Source: Candidatus Enterovibrio altilux | GTDB taxonomy: Bacteria > Pseudomonadota > Gammaproteobacteria > Enterobacterales > Vibrionaceae | NCBI RefSeq assembly: GCF_002381345.1 | Contig: NZ_CP020660.1 | Location: 1,364,001-1,428,000, forward strand | Direction: 5' to 3' | Length of the DNA stretch: 64,000 bases | In this document: positions 1,718 to 64,000 of the stretch, piece after piece | Layout: every line of letters begins with the position of its first letter | Position numbering within the stretch: the stretch's first letter is position 1 | Made by a program: the position numbers and the translations under genes | The notes under the pieces: generated by a model | Databases searched by the model: none | What the model saw: only the letters and a program-made list of their open reading frames with translations | Told to the model about the DNA's origin: nothing

Positions 1718-2931
1718 GGCTTTGTTTCTTAATTCGAGTTCGAATAGCAAAGTCCTAGATGATTAACTATTAGACAATCGTTTTCGTATTAAGCATACCT
1801 AGTGATGTCTGCTTATTTAACGCTTTTATTATTGTGTAGGTTTCGTTAATCTGAGTTGTATGATCCCTTAGGTTCAATCTCCCTCCCCGTCATTTTTTGA
1901 CTTGAATCATTGCTGTCTCTGTTAGGTAATGCTTATGGTAATCGATTTTATTTTTTGAATCAGGGAACTAAATTTTCAATCAACATTCTAAATCATTAAG
2001 TTCACTGAAATATTCAGGTCTATGAACAATTGTCGTTATAAAACCACTAACTGAGAGCAGCATAATCAAGCTTTAATGAGTCGTAGTTCACTAATTTTTT
2101 GTATTGATTAAGAAGTTATCCAGCTATGGAATTAAACTAAACATGGTAATCATGGGGGCCTCATTTATTTAGTAACTTAGCTATTATGACGACTTTCATG
2201 ATTAAACGCGTATTTTCAATGCCATGGAGAGGTTTGGCAGGATTCATAAATTCTGTTTTCAAACTTGCTCAATTGCCATTGTCACGCCCTCACTATTCAT
2301 ACATTAGTAAGCAAACCATAACGATTAATATCACGTTGAAGATGGAATAAAAAATAAAAAAATATGGCACTGATGGAAAACTGTGAGCTTGGCTCAAGTT
2401 ACATTTAGCGGTAGATATAAATACGTATAAAATCATTGCTGCTGAGTTAAGTGTATCAAATGTGGCTGACAGTAAAGTGCTACCTAACTTACCCAATCAG
2501 ACATGCTGAAAAATTAATGAAATATTAGTCGATGGTGCTTATTGCACTAGACAATATTACGAAACCATTCGTTTAACACGAATGGTTTCACCCATCCCAC
2601 AAAGGAAAAGAGTAATGTTTTGAAAACAAGGTCATCCATGTAATTGAGTAGTTGGTTATCAAAAGTTGTGCAGTTTAAATAAGCCTTGGAGAATGAGGTA
2701 TGGTTATAATAAATGTTCTCTATCAAAGAGGATTATGGTACAAAGCAAAAAATTTTTTGGCGGAACGTTGAGCTTAAAAGATCACAATGCTCGTATTAAA
2801 GACATCTATGCGATGACAAAAGTGTTAAATAAACTGACATGCTAGGTAGATATGCTTAAAATAAAAAAGTATTTAATTGTCGTCAATTATGTTGGGATTT
2901 GCTATTTAAACTCGAATTAAGAAATAAAGCC
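1718..2931 (+). mobile_element. Decayed composite IS5-family element, copy A
   Basis: The outer ends are inverted repeats (GGCTTTGTTTCTTAATTCGAG at the left, its complement with few changes at the right). From about 1944 a plus-strand transposase gene can be read through several stops: RYKTTN near 2037, FSNLAI near 2170, FSMPWRGLAGFINSV near 2215, and LSLKDHNA near 2770. The first 225 bases, by contrast, are the transposase 3' end in opposite orientation, so both outer ends are copies of the same (3') terminus and the real 5' terminus lies inside at about 1944. No intact transposase remains. It separates the str and S10 operons. The family is called from the conserved GTDGK..VWRKLHLA motif seen in the copy near 60.7 kb. 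Confidence 0.85.
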
Positions 2932-17030: not shown

Positions 17031-18179
17031 GCATTTATTTTAGTGTAGATAGACAGTTCTGATACGGTTATCTATTAGATGATTGTTTCTATTTGAGGCA
17101 TACTAAGTCCTTGTAACCTATTAAATGCTTTTAGCATTGTGTAGGTTTTGCTAATCTAGCGTTGGAACCCCTTAAATTCCATGTCCTTTCGAGCAGTTGT
17201 TTAACTCGGAATATCGTTGCTTATAATAGAGAACGATTATGGTAATCATGCCTTATTTTTCCATGCTGATTTGGACAGACTGCATTTCTTAAACTAGGAA
17301 ACTGAATCATTAACCGATAGCTTTAGACAGCTGGTCCATTAACATTATGGATTGATGAAAAAGTCATTCAATTATGGAACTGCACTAAGTAAGCTAATCA
17401 TGGGAGGAATCCTCTCTCATATAGCGAATTAACCATTACGACGACTTTCATAATTAAGTAATTATTTTCAATGTTACTGAGAGGTGTATCAGGATTGATT
17501 CATTCTGTTTGCAAATTCGTCCCATTACCATTAATCATACTCTCACTATTCATGCGTTAGCAAGCGAGCCAAAATAATTAATGTCACTTTTATCGTACGT
17601 TTTTAGTGCTCTTAGCATTCATGGCTAAGTGCTGGGGGAAGGTGACACTAATAGAAGATCACTAGTCTAGCACAAGTAATATTTAGAGGTAAATATAAAT
17701 ACGCATGAAATTATTGCTGCAGAATTAAGTTTATTTAATGTATGACTGACTGTGAGGTGATATTGAACCTGCTTAAACAGACCCGCCGAAAAATCAATGA
17801 AATATCAGGCAATGACATTTATGTACGAACACTAGATAATGTTATGAAATTAGCCATATTAAACGAGCGGTTGCACTTATTCAACCAAAAAAAGAAGTAA
17901 CTGTTAAAAATGAAATTATCTACGTAATTTAGTGATCAGTTACCAAAAGTTATACGGTTCAAACCAGCTTAAGAAAATGAAGTATAGTTACCATAAACCT
18001 TCCCTATTAAAGACAACAATGTTTCGAGCTAAAGAACTACTCGGAGTGACATCAAGTCTCAGGGTTCACAATGCTCAATTAACAATGCTTACGCAATAAT
18101 AAAAGCGTTAAAGAAGCTGACAGAGAATAGTTAATCATGTTGGGATTTGCTATTTAAATTTGAATTTGAAAACAAAGCC
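17031..18179 (+). mobile_element. Decayed composite IS5-family element, copy B
   Basis: The plus-strand transposase is readable in pieces: IDEKVIQLWN near 17350, SELTITTTFIIK near 17425, LLRGVSGLIHSV near 17475. The right end carries the same terminus as the other copies (its complement reads GGCTTTGTTTTCAAATTC). From about 17031 to 17279 the sequence is instead the transposase 3' end in the opposite orientation, joined to the internal 5' terminus near 17280. This junction lies about 35 bases further into the element than in copies A, F and H. The left end is heavily eroded. The last 49 bases are read on the minus strand as the end of the adjacent ATPase gene. Confidence 0.8.
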
Positions 18180-20648: not shown

Positions 20649-21541
20649 GTTTTTAGTTTTTAGTTCGAGTTCAGATACAAATTTCAATATAAAAAACGAT
20701 TAAATAATCGTTTTCATTTTAGGCATACCTGATCTTGTCAGCTTATTCAATGTTTTTATTATGCCGTAAGTTTATCTAATTTAAGCATTGTTATCTCTTA
20801 AGCCCAATGTGCCTCCTAGTAGTTTTTTGACTCGAAGCATAGCCGTCTCTGATAGGGGGCTTTTATGATAACTATACTTTGTTTTTCAATGCTTATTTGA
20901 ACTGTATAATTTTTGGTAACGGACCGCTAAATTACGCGGATGACCTCAGCTTCAAAAACTTGCTCCTTTTCTTGGTGGGATGAATGGAACTGCTCGTTTA
21001 ATATGAACGGTTCTATAATATTATTTAGTTTCGAAAATAATGTAGGCTGATATTTTGTTAATTTTTCAGCAAGTTGATTGAACAAATTAGGCAGCACTTT
21101 ACTGTCAATCACATTGGATGCATCTCACTCAGCAGCAATGACTTCACACAAATTTATATCTATTGTTAAATGTAATTTGCGCTAGACTCGCCGTTTTTCA
21201 TCAGTGCCATGCTTTTTAACCTTCCATTCTTCTTAACTGTCGACTTTGAGTCCCGTAGGATCCATGGCTCAGTGCGGGATACTTCGTTTACTTTTCGTTT
21301 GGAACGTGACGTTAATTATTTTGGCTCTCTTGCTAATGCATGAATAGTAAGGGCATGACAATGGCAGGGGAGTGAGTAAAAAATAGAATGTTAGTGAATT
21401 ACGATTGATTCAAACTGCATTATACTGTTTCCAGTTAGTTGTGTTGTAGCGAAGATTGTTCATAAACCTGAGTATTTAAGTGAGTATAGCTGATTAAAGC
21501 TTAGATAGATAATTTAGTCACCTGATTTAGGCAACCAAGCC
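20649..21541 (-). mobile_element. Decayed IS5-family element, copy C
   Basis: A simple (not composite) copy oriented on the minus strand. Its left end carries the transposase 3' end (reading LLGGTLGLRDNNA near 20825, then NKLTRSGMPKMK) and its right end the 5' terminus (complement GGCTTGGTTGCCTAAATCAG ending at 21541). About 150 bases are missing in the middle of the transposase near 21380. Many stops are present. The element lies between the plasmid-type operon and tgt and faces copy B, so the two IS copies enclose the replication genes with their 3' ends inward. Confidence 0.82.
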
Positions 21542-26327: not shown

Positions 26328-27373
26328 GGTCTTGTTTCCTAATTCAAGTTAGATAGTAAATCTCAATATAATTCACTATTAGACAGTCGCTTTCGTTTTA
26401 GGTATAACTAGCCCAGTCAGCTTATGTAACGTTTTTATCATGCCGTAGGTTTAGTCATTCTAGGCATTGTAATCTCTTATGCTCAATGTTCCTCTGAGGC
26501 GTTTTTATACTAGAAATCTTACCGTTTCTGATAGGCAACATTTATGGTAACCATACCTCATTTTTCAAGATTCATTTGAATAGTATAACTTTTGGTAACT
26601 GATCGCTAAATTATACGAATGATCTTGTTCTTAAAAGTGGCTCTTTTTCTTGGTGGAATGAATGGAACGACTTGTTTAATACGCATGGTTTCGTAACATC
26701 GTCTGGTGTTTTAAGCTTCATCGCATGATATTTCATGAATGCTTAGGCGAGTCTATTTAAGCAAGTTAAGTAGCACTTTGCCGTCAGTCATCTTTGATGC
26801 ACGAAATTTAGTAGTAATGATTTCATGAGTATTTATATCTACGACTACATGTCATTTGCCCCATACCAGCCATTTTCCATAATTATCATATTTTTTACTT
26901 TCCATTCGTTGTCACCGTGGAATTTGACCCCCGTAGAATTAATGGCTAAGTACTAGATGGTGCCTCTAATCTTCGCCTTGAATGCGGCGTTAACTTTTTT
27001 AACTTACTTGCTAATGTATGAATAGTGAGGGCCTGGCAACGGTAATCGAGCAAGTTTGAAAACAAAATTAATGAGTCTGTGCAAACCTCTCAATGACATT
27101 GAAAATACGCTTTGACCATGAAAGCTGTTGTAATGATGAAGTCGCTAAATAAACGAGTCCCCCACGATTGCTTTTATTACGTTTGATCCCATAGTTAAAT
27201 GGCTTCTTTCATTAATTCATAATGTTATTGAGTCCTGATTAATCGAAGCTTGATTATACTGCTTCCAGTTGGTTGCTTGGTAGTGAAGCTTATTTATAGA
27301 CTTAAATATTTAAGTGAACCTAGCTGTTTAGAGCGCAGATTGATAATTTAGTTTTTAATTTAGGAATAAAGGT
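26328..27373 (-). mobile_element. Decayed IS5-family element, full-length simple copy E
   Basis: This is the best full-length simple copy, about 1046 bp, with the transposase on the minus strand. The left terminus reads GGTCTTGTTTCCTAATTCAAG and the complement of the right terminus ACCTTTATTCCTAAATTAA. The whole transposase can be followed at protein level but has many stops and frameshifts. It serves as reference for the normal order of the two termini, against which copies A, B, F, G and H are seen to be rearranged. Confidence 0.85.
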
Positions 27374-36455: not shown

Positions 36456-36842
36456 TTAATTTGGACACAAAACCGTCTCGCCGTGTACAATCATGGAAAT
36501 CATTCTAGACACTTCGAACGGGATAAAAAATTGCCCCATTCGATCTGAGCCAAGCTCTAAATCCATGAAAACACTACTGAGAAAATCACAGTGATATGCT
36601 TCTAACCCCATAACCACTTCAGCCAGTAAATACGACATACGAACCGCATTGTCTTTTTCATATTGACGAACAATCCCAAGGTATTCTTGTTCAAGTTCAT
36701 CAAATTTCAGGAATGTATTTTAAATTGCTATTCCTGCCATCATCACAAAATCCTTAAAGACTTCATAACGATGGTGATAACGTGCAGTTTCATTAAAAAG
36801 GTGCGTGAACGCCCGTATATGGTTATTAGTCATAATACTCAT
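36456..36842 (-). pseudogene. N-6 DNA methylase (ICE/island type), N-terminal remnant
   Basis: Read on the minus strand from ATG 36842: MSIMTNNHIRAFTHLFNETARYHHRYEVFKDFVMMAG, then a TAA near 36722 (probably from CAA), then NTFLKFDELEQEYLGIVRQYEKD, then the strongly conserved MDLELGSDRMGQFFIPFEVSRM of N-6 adenine methylase relatives carried by ICEs. The gene stops at 36456, right after the FFxPxxVSRM motif and before any SAM-binding or NPPY catalytic motif. It is therefore both interrupted and truncated, and cannot be active. Confidence 0.7.
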
Positions 36843-36903
36843 CCAACCACCCTAAAAAAGACCGAGGTGCGCCTGTGCGCTTTTATACGCTGTCTGAGCG
36901 TAC

Positions 36904-36935
36904 TAAAAAAGAAAAGCCGCCGAAAGGTGGCTTTT
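36904..36935 (-). terminator. Minus-strand terminator after the island orphan gene
   Basis: On the minus strand, AAAAGCCACC-TTTC-GGCGGCTTTT is followed by CTTTTTT: ten pairs with one mismatch and a T run. It lies just past the frame-corrected stop (36939) of the small gene starting at 37183. Confidence 0.85.
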
Positions 36936-36938
36936 CCA

Positions 36939-37183
36939 TTAGAAACCGTAATCATTACCCTCATCATCAGAGAGATAGTTATGCAATGACCTCCATGTTC
37001 GGAAATACTCAACGCATCGCGTTTTGCATCATCCAGGCATGAAAATTCGTCTTCATTATACGAACCATCTATACCCACCCAAGTAACTTGGTACTCATTA
37101 TCGTTTTCCATAACCGGTTGACGATGCGCCGAGTAGTTACCTGTTTTGAGTGAATCAACACTTTCTTGAAATGGTAATCTCAT
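36939..37183 (-). pseudogene. Small island gene, probably frameshifted near its end
   Basis: The ATG at 37183 has a perfect GGAGG site. The product begins MRLPFQESVDSLKTGNYSAHRQ and contains EYQVTWVGIDGSYNEDEF and LDDAKRDALSISEHGG. In the current frame it runs on to 36839 through the terminator, an unlikely end. A one-base shift near 36985 gives an acidic tail YLSDDEGNDYGF and a stop at 36939, five bases before the terminator stem. I do not know its function. Confidence 0.5.
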
Positions 37184-37265
37184 AATTGCACCTCCTGACG
37201 TTAACATCATAGTTGAAGCTACCCTTACGTACTGATACCAGAATGTAAGGGGGAAAATTATTGAT

Positions 37266-37565
37266 GTGTATAGGCAGTGGCCAAGTATTGTTGATTTCGC
37301 TAAGCGCCTAAATGACTTGTCAGAGATTGTCGAGAAAAGTAAGTATCTGGATGGTATTGTTGAAAGGCTTATAATAGAATCATCATACAGTGCACTTCGG
37401 CATTTCTGGATGAGTGAATTATATTGGAACTTGTTACCTGAACTCGAATTAGCACACAACGTCATTCAACATTATAGCTCTGCTAAGTTGCGCTTCAAAG
37501 CATCATTGACGCATTCAACTATCAACTCGGATACTATTTTTTATTTTGACATAAGCTATCTATGA
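37266..37565 (+). CDS. Hypothetical protein, divergent from the previous gene
   Basis: A 99-residue frame with a GTG start at 37266 and AAGGGGG about 12 bases upstream. It reads YRQWPSIVDFAKRLNDLSEIV, then KYLDGIVERLIIES, and looks like a helical soluble protein. No similarity is recognised. It lies between the island and leuS and is divergent from the gene starting at 37183. It could be an island cargo gene or part of a longer lost gene. Confidence 0.4.
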   Translation: MYRQWPSIVDFAKRLNDLSEIVEKSKYLDGIVERLIIESSYSALRHFWMSELYWNLLPELELAHNVIQHYSSAKLRFKASLTHSTINSDTIFYFDISYL

Positions 37566-42233: not shown

Positions 42234-43510
42234 GGCTTTGTTTTTTAATTCATGTTCAGATAGCAAATTTCAACATGATTAACGATTAAATAATCACTTG
42301 CATTTTAGGTATACCTAGCCCAGCCCGTTTATTTAACGGTTTGATTATGCGTAAACCTCGCTAATCTGAGCATTGTCATCTCTTAAGCTCAATGCGCCTC
42401 CCAGTAGTTTTTGACTTGAAACATTGCCGTCTCTGATAGGGAACATTTATGGTAACCATACCTCGTTTTTCAATGCTGATTAGAACTGTATAACTTCTAG
42501 TGACTGACCGCTAAATTACGCGAAGCATTTCAGTTTTTAAAAATTTCTTTTTTTCTTGGTGGGATGAGTGGAGCCGTTCGTTTAATACGAACGGTTTCGT
42601 AACATTGTCTGGTGTCGTAAGCATTATCGACTGATATTTCATTGATTTTTTTAAAGGGCTTATTTAAGTAAGATAGATAGCACTGCACTGTCAGTTATAT
42701 TTGATGCACTTAACTCAGCAGCAATGATTTTATGTATATTTATATCTACCGCCAAATGTTACTTGCGTCAGACTTGCCGTTTGTCATCAGTACCATGCTT
42801 TTTTGACTTGTCATTCTTCTTCACTGTAAGTTTTGATCCCCGTAAAATCAATGGCTCAGTACTGTATGCTTCTTTTATTCATCGTCTTGAACGTGACGTT
42901 AACCGTTTTGACTCGTTTGCTAATGCATGGATAGTGAGGGCATGACAATAGCAATTGAGTAAATTTAAAAAATAGAATTAATTAAGCCTTGTAAATTTCT
43001 CAATGGCATTGAAAATACGTGTTTAATCATGATGGCCGTCGTAATGGTTAAGTTGCGAAATAAATGAGGATTCCCATAATGATCCTGCTTAGTTTTACTC
43101 CATTGTGAAATAGCATCTTCATTAATTCAGAATGCTAGTGAGCCATTATTCATTAAAGCTTGATTATGCTGCTTCGAGTTAGTTGTGTTATAACGGAGGT
43201 TGTTCATAGATCTGAATATTTAAGCGAGCCTAACTGCTTAAAATACTGATTGAAAATTTAGTTCTCTAATTTAAGCAATAAAGCCGGCTACCATAAACGT
43301 TCCATAGCAGAGACAGTAATGGTTCGAGTCAAAAAACTATTGGTAGGGACATTAAGCCTCAGGAATCACACAATGCAAATTAGTGAAATCGACGCCATAA
43401 TAAAAACATTAAATAAGCCGACAAGACTAGGTATGCCTAACATAAAAGCGATTGTCTAATAGTGAGTTATGTGGAATTTACTATCTGAACTTGAATGAGG
43501 AAATAAAAAT
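42234..43510 (-). mobile_element. Decayed composite IS5-family element, copy F
   Basis: A full-length minus-strand copy (42234-43285, about 1052 bp) is joined directly to a 225-bp plus-strand fragment of the transposase 3' end (43286-43510; it reads LLVGTLSLRN-like sequence, then IIKTLNKPTRLGMP). Reverse-complemented, this is the same arrangement as copy A, with the same junction (TTTATGGTA joined within a few bases to GGCTTTATT). The transposase is broken by many stops. It occupies the place of nadD and rsfS. Confidence 0.85.
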
Positions 43511-51171: not shown

Positions 51172-51190
51172 ATTTTGCTACTACTGCGAA

Positions 51191-51542
51191 TGGCTAAATT
51201 GCTAAAAAAACGAGGGTCACCCATGGTCACCCGGTCACCCTACTTAGTCTCATTCCATAGCTAAATGGCTTTTTTATTAATCCAAAATGTTAGTAAGCCA
51301 CGATTGATTAAAGTTTGATGATACTGTTCCCAGTTAGTTGTTTTGAGCGCAGATTGATAACTTAGTTTCTTGATCTAGGAAATAAAGCCCTGAGAGAGAA
51401 TTATGCTCAGATTAGCGAAATCTACGGCATAACAAAAACGTTAAATAAGTTGACAGGCTAAGTATGCCTAAAATGAAATCGAGCATTTAATAATGACTTA
51501 TGTTGAGGTTTACTATCTAAATTTAAATTAAAAAATAAAGTT
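51191..51542. mobile_element. IS5-family remnant, copy G (deleted composite)
   Basis: A minus-strand 5' fragment (51191-51389, ending in the 5' terminus GAAATAAAGCC) is joined to a plus-strand 3' fragment (51390-51542: it reads AQISEIYGITKTLNKLTG, then the 3' terminus). This is the composite arrangement of copy F after deletion of most of the transposase and part of the inverted fragment. Within it, three copies of GGTCACCC lie at 51215-51240. Confidence 0.7.
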
Positions 51543-51697: not shown

Positions 51698-52793
51698 CTG
51701 ATTTAAGAAATAAAACTGCTCTAATAGGGAAGATTTATAGCAATCATACTTCGCTTGCTCAATGCTTATTTGAACCGTATAATTTCTGACAATTCACCGT
51801 TAAGTTACGCGGATAATATTATTCCCAACCAGTTGCTTCTTTTCTTGGTGGGATGAAAAGTACCGTTCGTTTAATATGAATGGTTTTGTAATATTTTTTA
51901 GCATTATAAGCACTATTGCCTGATGTTTCATTGATTTTGCGGTGGGTCGATTTGAGCAAGTTAGGTAGCACTTTACTGGCAGTCACATTTGATACACTAA
52001 ACTCAGCTGCAATAATCCCATTCAAATTTATATATACCACTCAATATAACTTACGCCGATTCTCCGTTTGCCATCAGTACCATGCCTTTCTACTTTCCAT
52101 TCGCCGTCATCGTAACTGTGAGCCCCTTAAAATTAATGGCTAAGTGCTGGATCAGCTCTTTAGTCTTCGTCTTGAATGCGACGTTAACGGTTGTGGTTTG
52201 CTTACTAATGCATGAACGGTGAGAGCATGAAACGGTAGTTGAGTCAGTTTAAAAACAGAATTAATGAATCCTTGCAGACTTTTAATGGTATTGAAAATAC
52301 GCATGTAACCATGAAAGCCGTTGTAATGGTTAAGCTTCTAAAAAAGCGAAGTCTTTTATGATTATCCCGCTTAATTTGATTTCAAAGCTGAATGACTCCT
52401 TCATGAATTCAAGATGTTAGTGAGCCATGATTGAATAAAGCTTGATTATATTGTTTTCAGTTAGTTGTTTTGTAGCGACGCATGTTCATAGACCTGAACA
52501 TTTAAGTGAGTCTAGCTGTTGAGAACGTAAATCAATAATGTAGTTCCCTAATTTAAAAAAAAATCATGGTACCGTAAATTTTTTATATCAGAGACGGTAA
52601 TGTTTTGAGTCAAAAAATTACTCGGAGGGACATTGTTTCTAAGAGATTACCATGCTTAAACTGGTTAAGCCTAAGCTATGATAAAAGCATTTAATAAGCT
52701 GACTGGAGCTAGATATGCCTAAATTTTCAGAGATTATTTAATAGTAAATTATTCTGGATTTGGCTATTTGAATTAGCATCAGGAAACATAGCT
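51698..52793 (-). mobile_element. Decayed composite IS5-family element, copy H
   Basis: A minus-strand copy missing about 190 bases at its 3' end runs to about 52569, where a plus-strand 3' fragment (52570-52793) follows. The junction (AATCATGGTACCGTAAA against GCCGGCTACCATAAACG in copy F) is the same apart from point changes. The left edge abuts a short match to an IS 5' terminus (ATTTAAGAAATAAA near 51701). It lies between lipA and recB, at the place where recD would be. Confidence 0.75.
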
Positions 52794-60161: not shown

Positions 60162-61152
60162 GGCTGTATTTCCTAATTTGAGTTTAGATAGTAGATTTCA
60201 ACATAATCACGATTAGACAATCGCTTTCATTTTAGGCAGCCTTAGTTCTGTTAATTTATTTAACGCTTCTATCATGGCGTTGGTTTCGCTAATTTGAACA
60301 TTGGGATTTCTTAGGTTTAATGTTTCTCTGAGTAGTTTTTGATTTGAAACATTGCGCTTCTGATAGGAAATGTTAATGGTAACTGCACTTCGTTTTTTTA
60401 TTTTGATATGAACCGCATAACTTCTGATAACTGACCATTAAATTGTGTGGATAATCTTATTTTCCAAAATTATTTTCTTTGGTGGAATGAGTGGAACTGC
60501 TTGTTTAATACGAACGGTTTAGTAATATTGTCTGGCGTCGCAAGCATCACCGCCTGATATTTCATTGATTCTTTGGTGGGTTTGTTTGAGCAAGTTAGGT
60601 AGCACTTCACCGTCAATTTGATACGTATGTATATCTTCTGCTAAATGTAACTTGCGCCAGACTCGAAGCTTCCCATCAGTGTCATGCTTGTTTGCTTTCC
60701 ATTTATCTTTATCATAGGCTTTGAGCCCAGTAGAATCAACGGCTAAATGCTGAATGGCTCCTTTAGTCTTCGTCTTGAACGCGATATTAACCGTTTTGGT
60801 TTGCTGGCTAATGCATGCATAGTGAGGGCATGGCAATGGTAATTTAGCAAGTTTGCAAACAGAATTAATGAATCCTTGCAGGCTTCTCAATGGCACTAAA
60901 AATACGTGTTAAACCATGAAAATTGTCGTAATGGCTAAGTTGCTAAAGAAATAAGTTCTTCCATGACTACTCAGCTTAGTCTAATTCCATATCTGACTGG
61001 TTTCTCCATCAATTTAAAATGTTAGTGAGCCCCGACTGATTGTACGGCTTCCAATTAGTTGATTTGCAGCGAAACTTGTTCATAAACCTGAATATTGAAG
61101 TTAACTTAGCCATTTAGAGGGTAGATTGATCATTGAGTTTAACGGATAGGGC
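60162..61152 (-). mobile_element. Decayed IS5-family element, copy I, with the longest transposase piece
   Basis: A simple minus-strand copy of about 990 bp. Its open piece at 60519-60896 (125 codons) reads MPLRSLQGFINSVCKLAKLPL, then IQHLAVDSTGLKAYDKDKW and KLRVWRKLHLAEDIHTYQIDG, then LPNLLKQTHQRINEISGG. These are the clear signatures of an IS5-family DDE transposase, with the first catalytic aspartate in VDSTGL. The N- and C-terminal parts are out of frame or interrupted, so the element is dead. Confidence 0.88.
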
Positions 61153-63828: not shown

Positions 63829-64000
63829 TTCTGTTTCCTCATTCGAGTTCAGATAATAAATTTAACATGATTGACGGTTAAACAATCGTTTTGATAGCCA
63901 TATTTCGCTTTCCAATGTTTATTGGAATCGCTCGTTTAATTTAAGCGGTTTTATAATATTGTCTGGTGCTGTAAACACCATCAGCTGATATTTCATTGAT
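63829..64000 (-). mobile_element. IS5-family remnant, copy J (runs off the window)
   Basis: The 3' terminus (CTGTTTCCTCATTCGAGTTCAG) starts at about 63829. After about 65 bases an internal deletion joins the sequence near 63895 to later parts of the transposase (TTTGATAGCC next to CATATTTCGC), and the similarity runs to the window end. Orientation is minus. Confidence 0.75.

Follow-up and report, generated by a model that had tools for sequence, protein, structure and literature searches.

A unit with two right ends, probably made by one self-join of an IS903-like element, that spread in an anglerfish symbiont genome

Introduction

What is the unit lying near the start of this 64,000-nucleotide stretch of DNA (the window, as we call the whole stretch that was analysed), in which a decayed insertion sequence (IS) is preceded by an inverted piece of an IS 3' end, and was it formed once and then multiplied, or did the same accident occur several times? 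An earlier note, made from the letters alone, had favoured a single rearrangement that spread.

The genome to which the window belongs comprises 2,143,356 bases in 4 contigs, the largest of 1,604,691, and these figures are those given for the luminous anglerfish symbiont 'Ca. Enterovibrio luxaltus' CC26 (PMC6020299). In that symbiont 672 IS5-family transposase genes have been reported, all classed as pseudogenes and attributed to a single old expansion, with IS5 transposases that lack inverted repeats or are truncated (Hendry 2018, PMC6020299). That study deals with the same genome and the same family and offers gene counts and a transposase tree; the composite described here and its inverted arm go unmentioned in the main-text parts of the paper on which we draw.

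Results

An IS903-like element with an inverted right end fused to its left end

A consensus built from 27 and then from 56 copies gives a composite unit of 1277 bp, made of a 226-bp inverted right (3') end followed by a 1051-bp IS, which agrees well with the unit of about 1.25 kb with terminal inverted repeats of about 225 bp that the earlier note had described. The inverted right end, which we call the arm, closes with ATGGTAACC and is followed directly by the left end, GGCTTTATTT... in the composite consensus. Both outer ends of the composite are therefore right ends (R), the left end (L) is internal, and the terminal inverted repeats are 226 bp long. Simple copies have the ends GGCTTTGTTTCCTAAATC and GGCTTTGTTTCCTAATTC.

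IS903 is about 1.05 kb long and has 18-bp terminal inverted repeats beginning with GGCTTTGTT. The inner element of 1051 bp is IS903-like and belongs to the IS5 family: a 244-aa piece of its consensus scores 303.3 bits against the NCBIfam IS5 model NF033579 (cut-off 140), a second piece of 61 aa, too short for that cut-off, scores 49.2 bits against the same model, and the first 137 aa give 139.4 bits with Pfam DDE_Tnp_1_5. Most of the 12 plasmid matches listed are annotated as IS903B, with protein identities of 61.9-62.7%. The composite's IS thus shares with the IS903 group the IS5-type DDE transposase, the approximate size (~1.05 kb), ends that start with GGCTTTGTT, and 9-bp target duplications, the last seen at composites and at named relatives. 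A simple IS903-type element has a single end of each kind, left and right, whereas the composite has two right ends, 226-bp inverted repeats and a buried left end; since it is bounded by two right ends with the left end inside, it is a derivative of the IS903 group rather than a standard member. Nor is it a composite transposon in the sense of two ISs flanking passenger genes, as there is no passenger DNA and the arm abuts the left end. As regards MITEs and other non-autonomous elements, the composite retains the transposase gene region, with codon 245 mixed among copies. These results confirm that the composite is an IS5-family, IS903-like element with an inverted right end fused to its left end.

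Copies in the window

The copies in the window are denoted by the letters that the earlier note had given them. Two of the three that it had read as a full IS preceded by its inverted 3' end, A and F, are confirmed as full canonical composites. In copy A the arm occupies 1718-1943 on the minus strand (R-end profile, model positions 2-225, E 1.2e-53), the left end lies at 1944, and the IS body runs on the plus strand from this buried left end to the right end (1944-2931), with a decayed transposase; the L, middle and R profiles match in order, and the copy aligns with the composite consensus. Copy F is a minus-strand composite whose arm (43286-43510) matches the R profile on the plus strand at 43287-43507 (model 1-222), and whose body, placed by profile matches and by the L end, extends on the minus strand from the left end at 43285 to the right end at 42234 (42234-43285).

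The third, copy H, turned out not to be a complete composite. It has an arm at 52568-52793 on the plus strand (R profile at 52570-52792), which is R-like at the diagnostic sites, and a minus-strand body (51698-52567) whose left end is of simple type and which lacks a right-end profile match of its own. Its join cannot be placed to the exact base, and by its spacing it is counted among the canonical joins below; the simple-type L bases, the R-like arm and the join that cannot be placed to the base indicate that copy H is probably a separate event. The offset of about 35 bases noted at the join of copy B (17037-18179, plus strand) is borne out in that its arm is about 35 nt longer by alignment, and we found in addition that its left end is truncated (the L profile is absent) and that it belongs to another, independent joining event.

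Copy G (51189-51541, minus strand), with partial L (85-150) and R (71-224) matches, looks like a remnant from which the join has been removed, as had been suspected. Profile search detected no arm in the simple copies C (20657-21541) and E (26328-27373) or in copy I (60162-61139, left end slightly truncated), all on the minus strand, which is how they had been read. Two further pieces of the element were seen in the window: a 50-bp right-end-like piece at 37413-37462, inside a predicted reverse-strand ORF (36839-37465), and an IS copy at 63829-63999 that continues past the window end.

One join in many copies

An 18-nt pattern across the junction, searched with up to 3 mismatches, matched the genome 135 times, compared with 0 matches for the reversed control. 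In a set of 464 kb, made of twenty 20-kb stretches at roughly even spacing plus the window, we counted 124 complete left ends, of which 70 lack an arm and 54 bear one; in 47 of the 54 the canonical join was found within 1 nt. The sampled 400 kb alone held 44 canonical joins, which extrapolates to about 236 per genome. In a larger set of 798 kb, which includes stretches chosen for holding copies, 138 of the 245 complete left ends bear an arm. In 128 of these 138 the join lies, to within 1 nt, at one and the same position, as expected from the common junction claimed for the window copies, and in 107 of the 128 canonical copies the arm extends to the outer terminus. By extrapolation, one unit reached roughly 200 or more copies.

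Evidence that the composite moved as a unit

Among 27 aligned composites the agreement per 30-column bin is 0.78-0.91 inside the unit and 0.43 and 0.40 just outside its two ends. Composites with good termini show a 9-bp duplication at their outer ends with at least 7 of 9 matching bases in 5 of 56 cases, where 0.22 are expected, and 0 of 20,000 permutations reach this number; 20 of the 76 flanked composites and 12 of the 43 simple copies were left out of the count for poor termini. Nine was the best of the duplication lengths from 2 to 14 that were tried (mean-identity permutation p 0.006), and no other length stood out in the large composite set, while in a smaller copy set a 5-bp register scored about equal to the 9-bp one. 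Simple copies gave 1 of 31 against 0.10 expected, and a perfect 9-bp duplication was found in 19 of the 62 scorable named relatives (43 without). The 9 bp preceding the buried L end are the arm's own ATGGTAACC in the consensus, and they match the right flank at 6 or fewer of 9 positions in all 76 copies. Duplications thus lie outside the composite and not only around the inner element, which is the outcome that the earlier note had made its reading depend on; together with the common join they support its view that one rearrangement gave a unit with a 3' terminus at either end, which then spread.

One composite (C1:1479751-1481008) sits within another IS copy and is flanked by a repeat of host bases that is 8 long by model coordinates and 9 by alignment of the flanks, the decayed 9-mers themselves matching at only 5 of 9. 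A second composite interrupts an IS host from which 53 bases are missing. The joined flanks of 94 elements yielded no clear case of a gene restored across a composite, the longest open frame over the join being 321 nt.

As 51 of the 56 good-ended composites have no clear 9-bp duplication, transposition of the unit is argued from a minority of copies together with the copy number and the sharp boundaries. Adjacent deletions have been reported to be common for IS903 (PMC11708052), and such deletions, with decay, could explain the scarcity of duplications. Taken together, the data support movement of the composite as a unit.

Mostly one lineage

Three sites in the left end distinguish composites from simple copies. 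With L hits ending before model position 75 omitted, which leaves 125 of the 128 canonical copies and 9 of the 10 odd joins, composite-type bases are carried by 117 of 125 canonical copies (4 of the others are simple-type and 4 ambiguous), by 2 of 9 odd-join copies (the other 7 being simple-type), and by 9 of 105 armless ends, of which 94 are simple-type and 2 ambiguous. Of the nine armless composite-type ends, two retain an arm remnant; among those that do not, one belongs to an element complete from its left to its right end. Twelve canonical copies have R-like arms. These arms and the 8 of 125 canonical copies without composite-type L bases indicate that recombination or a few repeat events occurred.

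A quick tree (elements below 850 bp excluded) was star-like with mixed labels, and required 15 changes between composite and simple against a shuffled mean of 27; a second (elements below 950 bp and one long-branch row excluded), star-like and mixed as well, required 14 against a mean of 22. Well-supported branches force at least 2 such changes in both. A tree with the composites as one clade scored 84 log units above the free quick tree (p-AU 0.907), so that a single composite clade is not rejected. Mean identity is 0.738 among composites and 0.674 among simple copies, and this greater closeness suggests a more recent burst for the composites. At position 7 of the left end, 67 of 76 buried ends have A, as would be expected if the buried left end fell out of use; simple copies have G in 24 and A in 17 of 43, and a congener has G. 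Judged by sequence relationships, the composites thus appear to be mostly one lineage.

The arm most likely comes from a second copy

The consensus of the arm differs from that of the right end at 18 of 226 sites; upstream of the stop codon these change 9 codons synonymously and 6 non-synonymously, and one further codon differs beyond it. Counting diagnostic sites in R hits that span at least 150 model positions, we were able to find one simple copy (C1:984567-985599) that is arm-type at all 17 sites scored; no other of the 45 simple copies matches so fully, the runner-up reaching 0.75. The 18 differences and the existence of this copy make it most likely that the arm derives from a different copy lineage. 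In 69 copies no preference of the arm for its own right end was seen (identity 0.688, against 0.689 to other right ends), a comparison blurred by decay. Of 108 scored arms, 18 are mosaics that are R-type outside and arm-type near the join, and the reverse occurs in 0; from these one-way mosaics it seems that ends were exchanged.

The join itself falls in a near-palindrome. A search for the ancestral nested locus (right end, ATGGTAACC and host continuation) gave 2 genome matches, against 3 for the reversed control; both candidates were rejected, as there is no IS end at either place.

Other self-joins and decay

About fifteen left ends are joined to an inverted IS at some other point of the host element, whose other half has in most cases left no trace (examples lie in the islands C1_1020001, C1_872143, C1_820001, C1_1460001, C1_479705 and C3_60001). 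Eight of these have a right end, seven of them with no host remainder beyond it, and in the test for 9-bp duplications eight odd-join copies gave 0 to 4 of 9 matches. Self-joins are frequent in this genome, as are hosts that have lost one half. The findings suggest that self-joins recur and that one took over.

Non-canonical left-end joins comprise 15 inverted cases, some of them perhaps deleted canonical copies, against 2 in the same orientation. We considered this orientation bias as proof of right-right capture and dropped it, since right ends, too, are often abutted by inverted pieces (56 of 331 are abutted by an IS, 39 inverted and 17 in the same orientation), and adjacent deletion therefore explains much of the bias.

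The unit looks dead today. A copy with an intact transposase, the remaining thing to look for according to the earlier note, did not turn up among 119 two-ended elements, in which the longest stop-free stretch is 143 aa as against ~306 codons. Composites differ from the consensus at ~16% of sites, mostly by C to T and G to A substitutions (~0.20 each), and many are still 1270-1280 bp long, with few net indels; the decay looks neutral. Of 56 composites, 12 have TGG at transposase codon 245 (tryptophan) and 24 have TGA or TAA; the 38 simple copies compared are mixed in a similar way. This points either to a founder that was polymorphic or to a mutational hot spot. TGA at this codon was dropped as proof of a non-autonomous founder, because TGG, TGA and TAA occur in both forms.

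Related elements in other genomes

A congener with a 5.0-Mb genome (G017) holds a simple element 73-78% identical to this one, and no arm was found at its 8 distinct left ends. The left-end sequence is the same at all 8 (contigs C83, C167, C30, C102, C72, C108, C45 and C81), most of them at contig ends, so that this IS may be active now. The query matched somewhere in 13 of 60 other panel genomes, and with at most 10 candidates scored per genome no match crossed the join by more than 9 nt; a 2.6-Mb, 40-contig panel genome (G012) was compared by sequence and family match only.

Of 80 named relatives, 18 had no detectable end pair and were omitted. In the 62 that could be scored no inverted right end was found upstream, within up to 1500 bp, and 59 have an IS length of 1052-1059 bp. 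Other IS-like pieces flank three of them, and in one of these three both flanks hold inverted left-end pieces.

Discussion

We propose that a single self-join of an IS903-like element very probably made the 1277-bp right-right unit, which then spread and decayed neutrally. The left end of one copy would have joined the interior of a second, inverted copy, 226 bp from the right end of that copy, either through nested insertion or through an adjacent deletion promoted by the transposase. With a right end on each side, in inverted orientation, the intervening segment would then have had two termini that the transposase recognises, and could have transposed as a right-right unit with its left end buried, the transposase pairing two right ends. 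This one unit would have multiplied in 'Ca. Enterovibrio luxaltus', probably after much of the simple form, and its copies would since have decayed neutrally.

The common join could instead reflect recurrent independent insertion, in the same orientation, at a near-palindromic hot spot, ATGGTAACC(AT), in the IS right end. The join does lie within such a sequence, copy H combines a simple-type left end with an R-like arm near the canonical site, and left ends have joined inverted ISs at other host positions (357 to 925). However, 117 of 125 canonical copies carry left-end bases that are absent from 94 of 105 armless ends, the arm consensus has its own bases at 18 sites and a single composite clade is not rejected, so that we regard recurrence at a hot spot as improbable. 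It is also conceivable that one element copied its own end, by template switching or auto-integration. Inverted joins within one element are known among the products of transposition and replication, and the layout alone would be compatible with such an origin. Yet the arm and the right end differ as two coding lineages do (18 of 226 sites; 9 codon changes synonymous, 6 not), a simple copy with an arm-type right end exists, the join falls at the left terminus, and none of the 69 composites, blurred as they are by decay, has an arm equal to its own right end; self-copying is thus rather less probable still.

The exchanged ends (18 of 108 arms mosaic) and the nine armless left ends with composite-type bases would fit a history in which only the inner left-right element was mobile and homologous recombination or segmental duplication brought the arm along. 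We give this slightly less credence than self-copying, since composites end abruptly at both outer boundaries, with unrelated sequence beyond, 9-bp duplications are found outside these ends, and two composites interrupt IS copies with the arm included, one repeating host bases and one having lost 53. The earlier note had also pointed out that a transcript could fold into a long hairpin. This holds as predicted base-pairing, the arms of the consensus transcript pairing nearly end to end (-560 kcal/mol predicted, no shuffle control), but a function is not supported: agreement in the arm is 0.821, not above that of the coding body, codon positions 1, 2 and 3 agree at 0.835, 0.849 and 0.833, and an arm resembles its own right end no more than it does the right ends of other copies. 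That the hairpin was kept for a function, for example as a regulatory or antisense RNA, is the least probable of these explanations.

With a single right-right unit as the preferred reading, one may speculate that inverted self-nesting is a repeatable route by which an IS gains a unit with its better end in two copies, and that this architecture drove the burst, the right-right form outcompeting or outliving its left-right parent; we consider this unlikely enough to offer it as conjecture. A bacterial IS here altered its own architecture through a self-join and then multiplied into a large share of the IS copies of its genome. As the simple form, a candidate partner lineage, the successful join and other self-joins are present in one genome, the steps can be compared directly, and IS copy counts in decaying symbionts may conceal composite units of this kind.

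We found no report of such an IS5-family composite among open-licence papers. Transposons with long inverted repeats are already known from eukaryotes. Foldback-type transposons such as Galileo have long inverted terminal repeats, as the composite does, but they are eukaryotic, and their origin and transposase are unrelated to those of the composite. Plant MULEs with multiple long terminal inverted repeats are another case, for which nested insertion has been discussed as one possible origin (Ferguson and Jiang 2012, PMC3310237); in the parts of that work considered here, the extra terminal repeats are amplified along with the element, as in the composite. MULEs are, however, eukaryotic Mutator-like elements with mostly tandem extra repeats, whereas the composite is a bacterial IS with one inverted extra end. 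Among bacteria, IS inversions in Wolbachia have been attributed to recombination between terminal inverted repeats (Ling and Cordaux 2010, PMC3004938). As far as the parts of that study used here go, such recombination, in which a single IS exchanges its two inverted ends, bears on the mosaic arms of the composite; in Wolbachia, however, ordinary ISs were inverted, whereas here a new unit with two right ends was formed.
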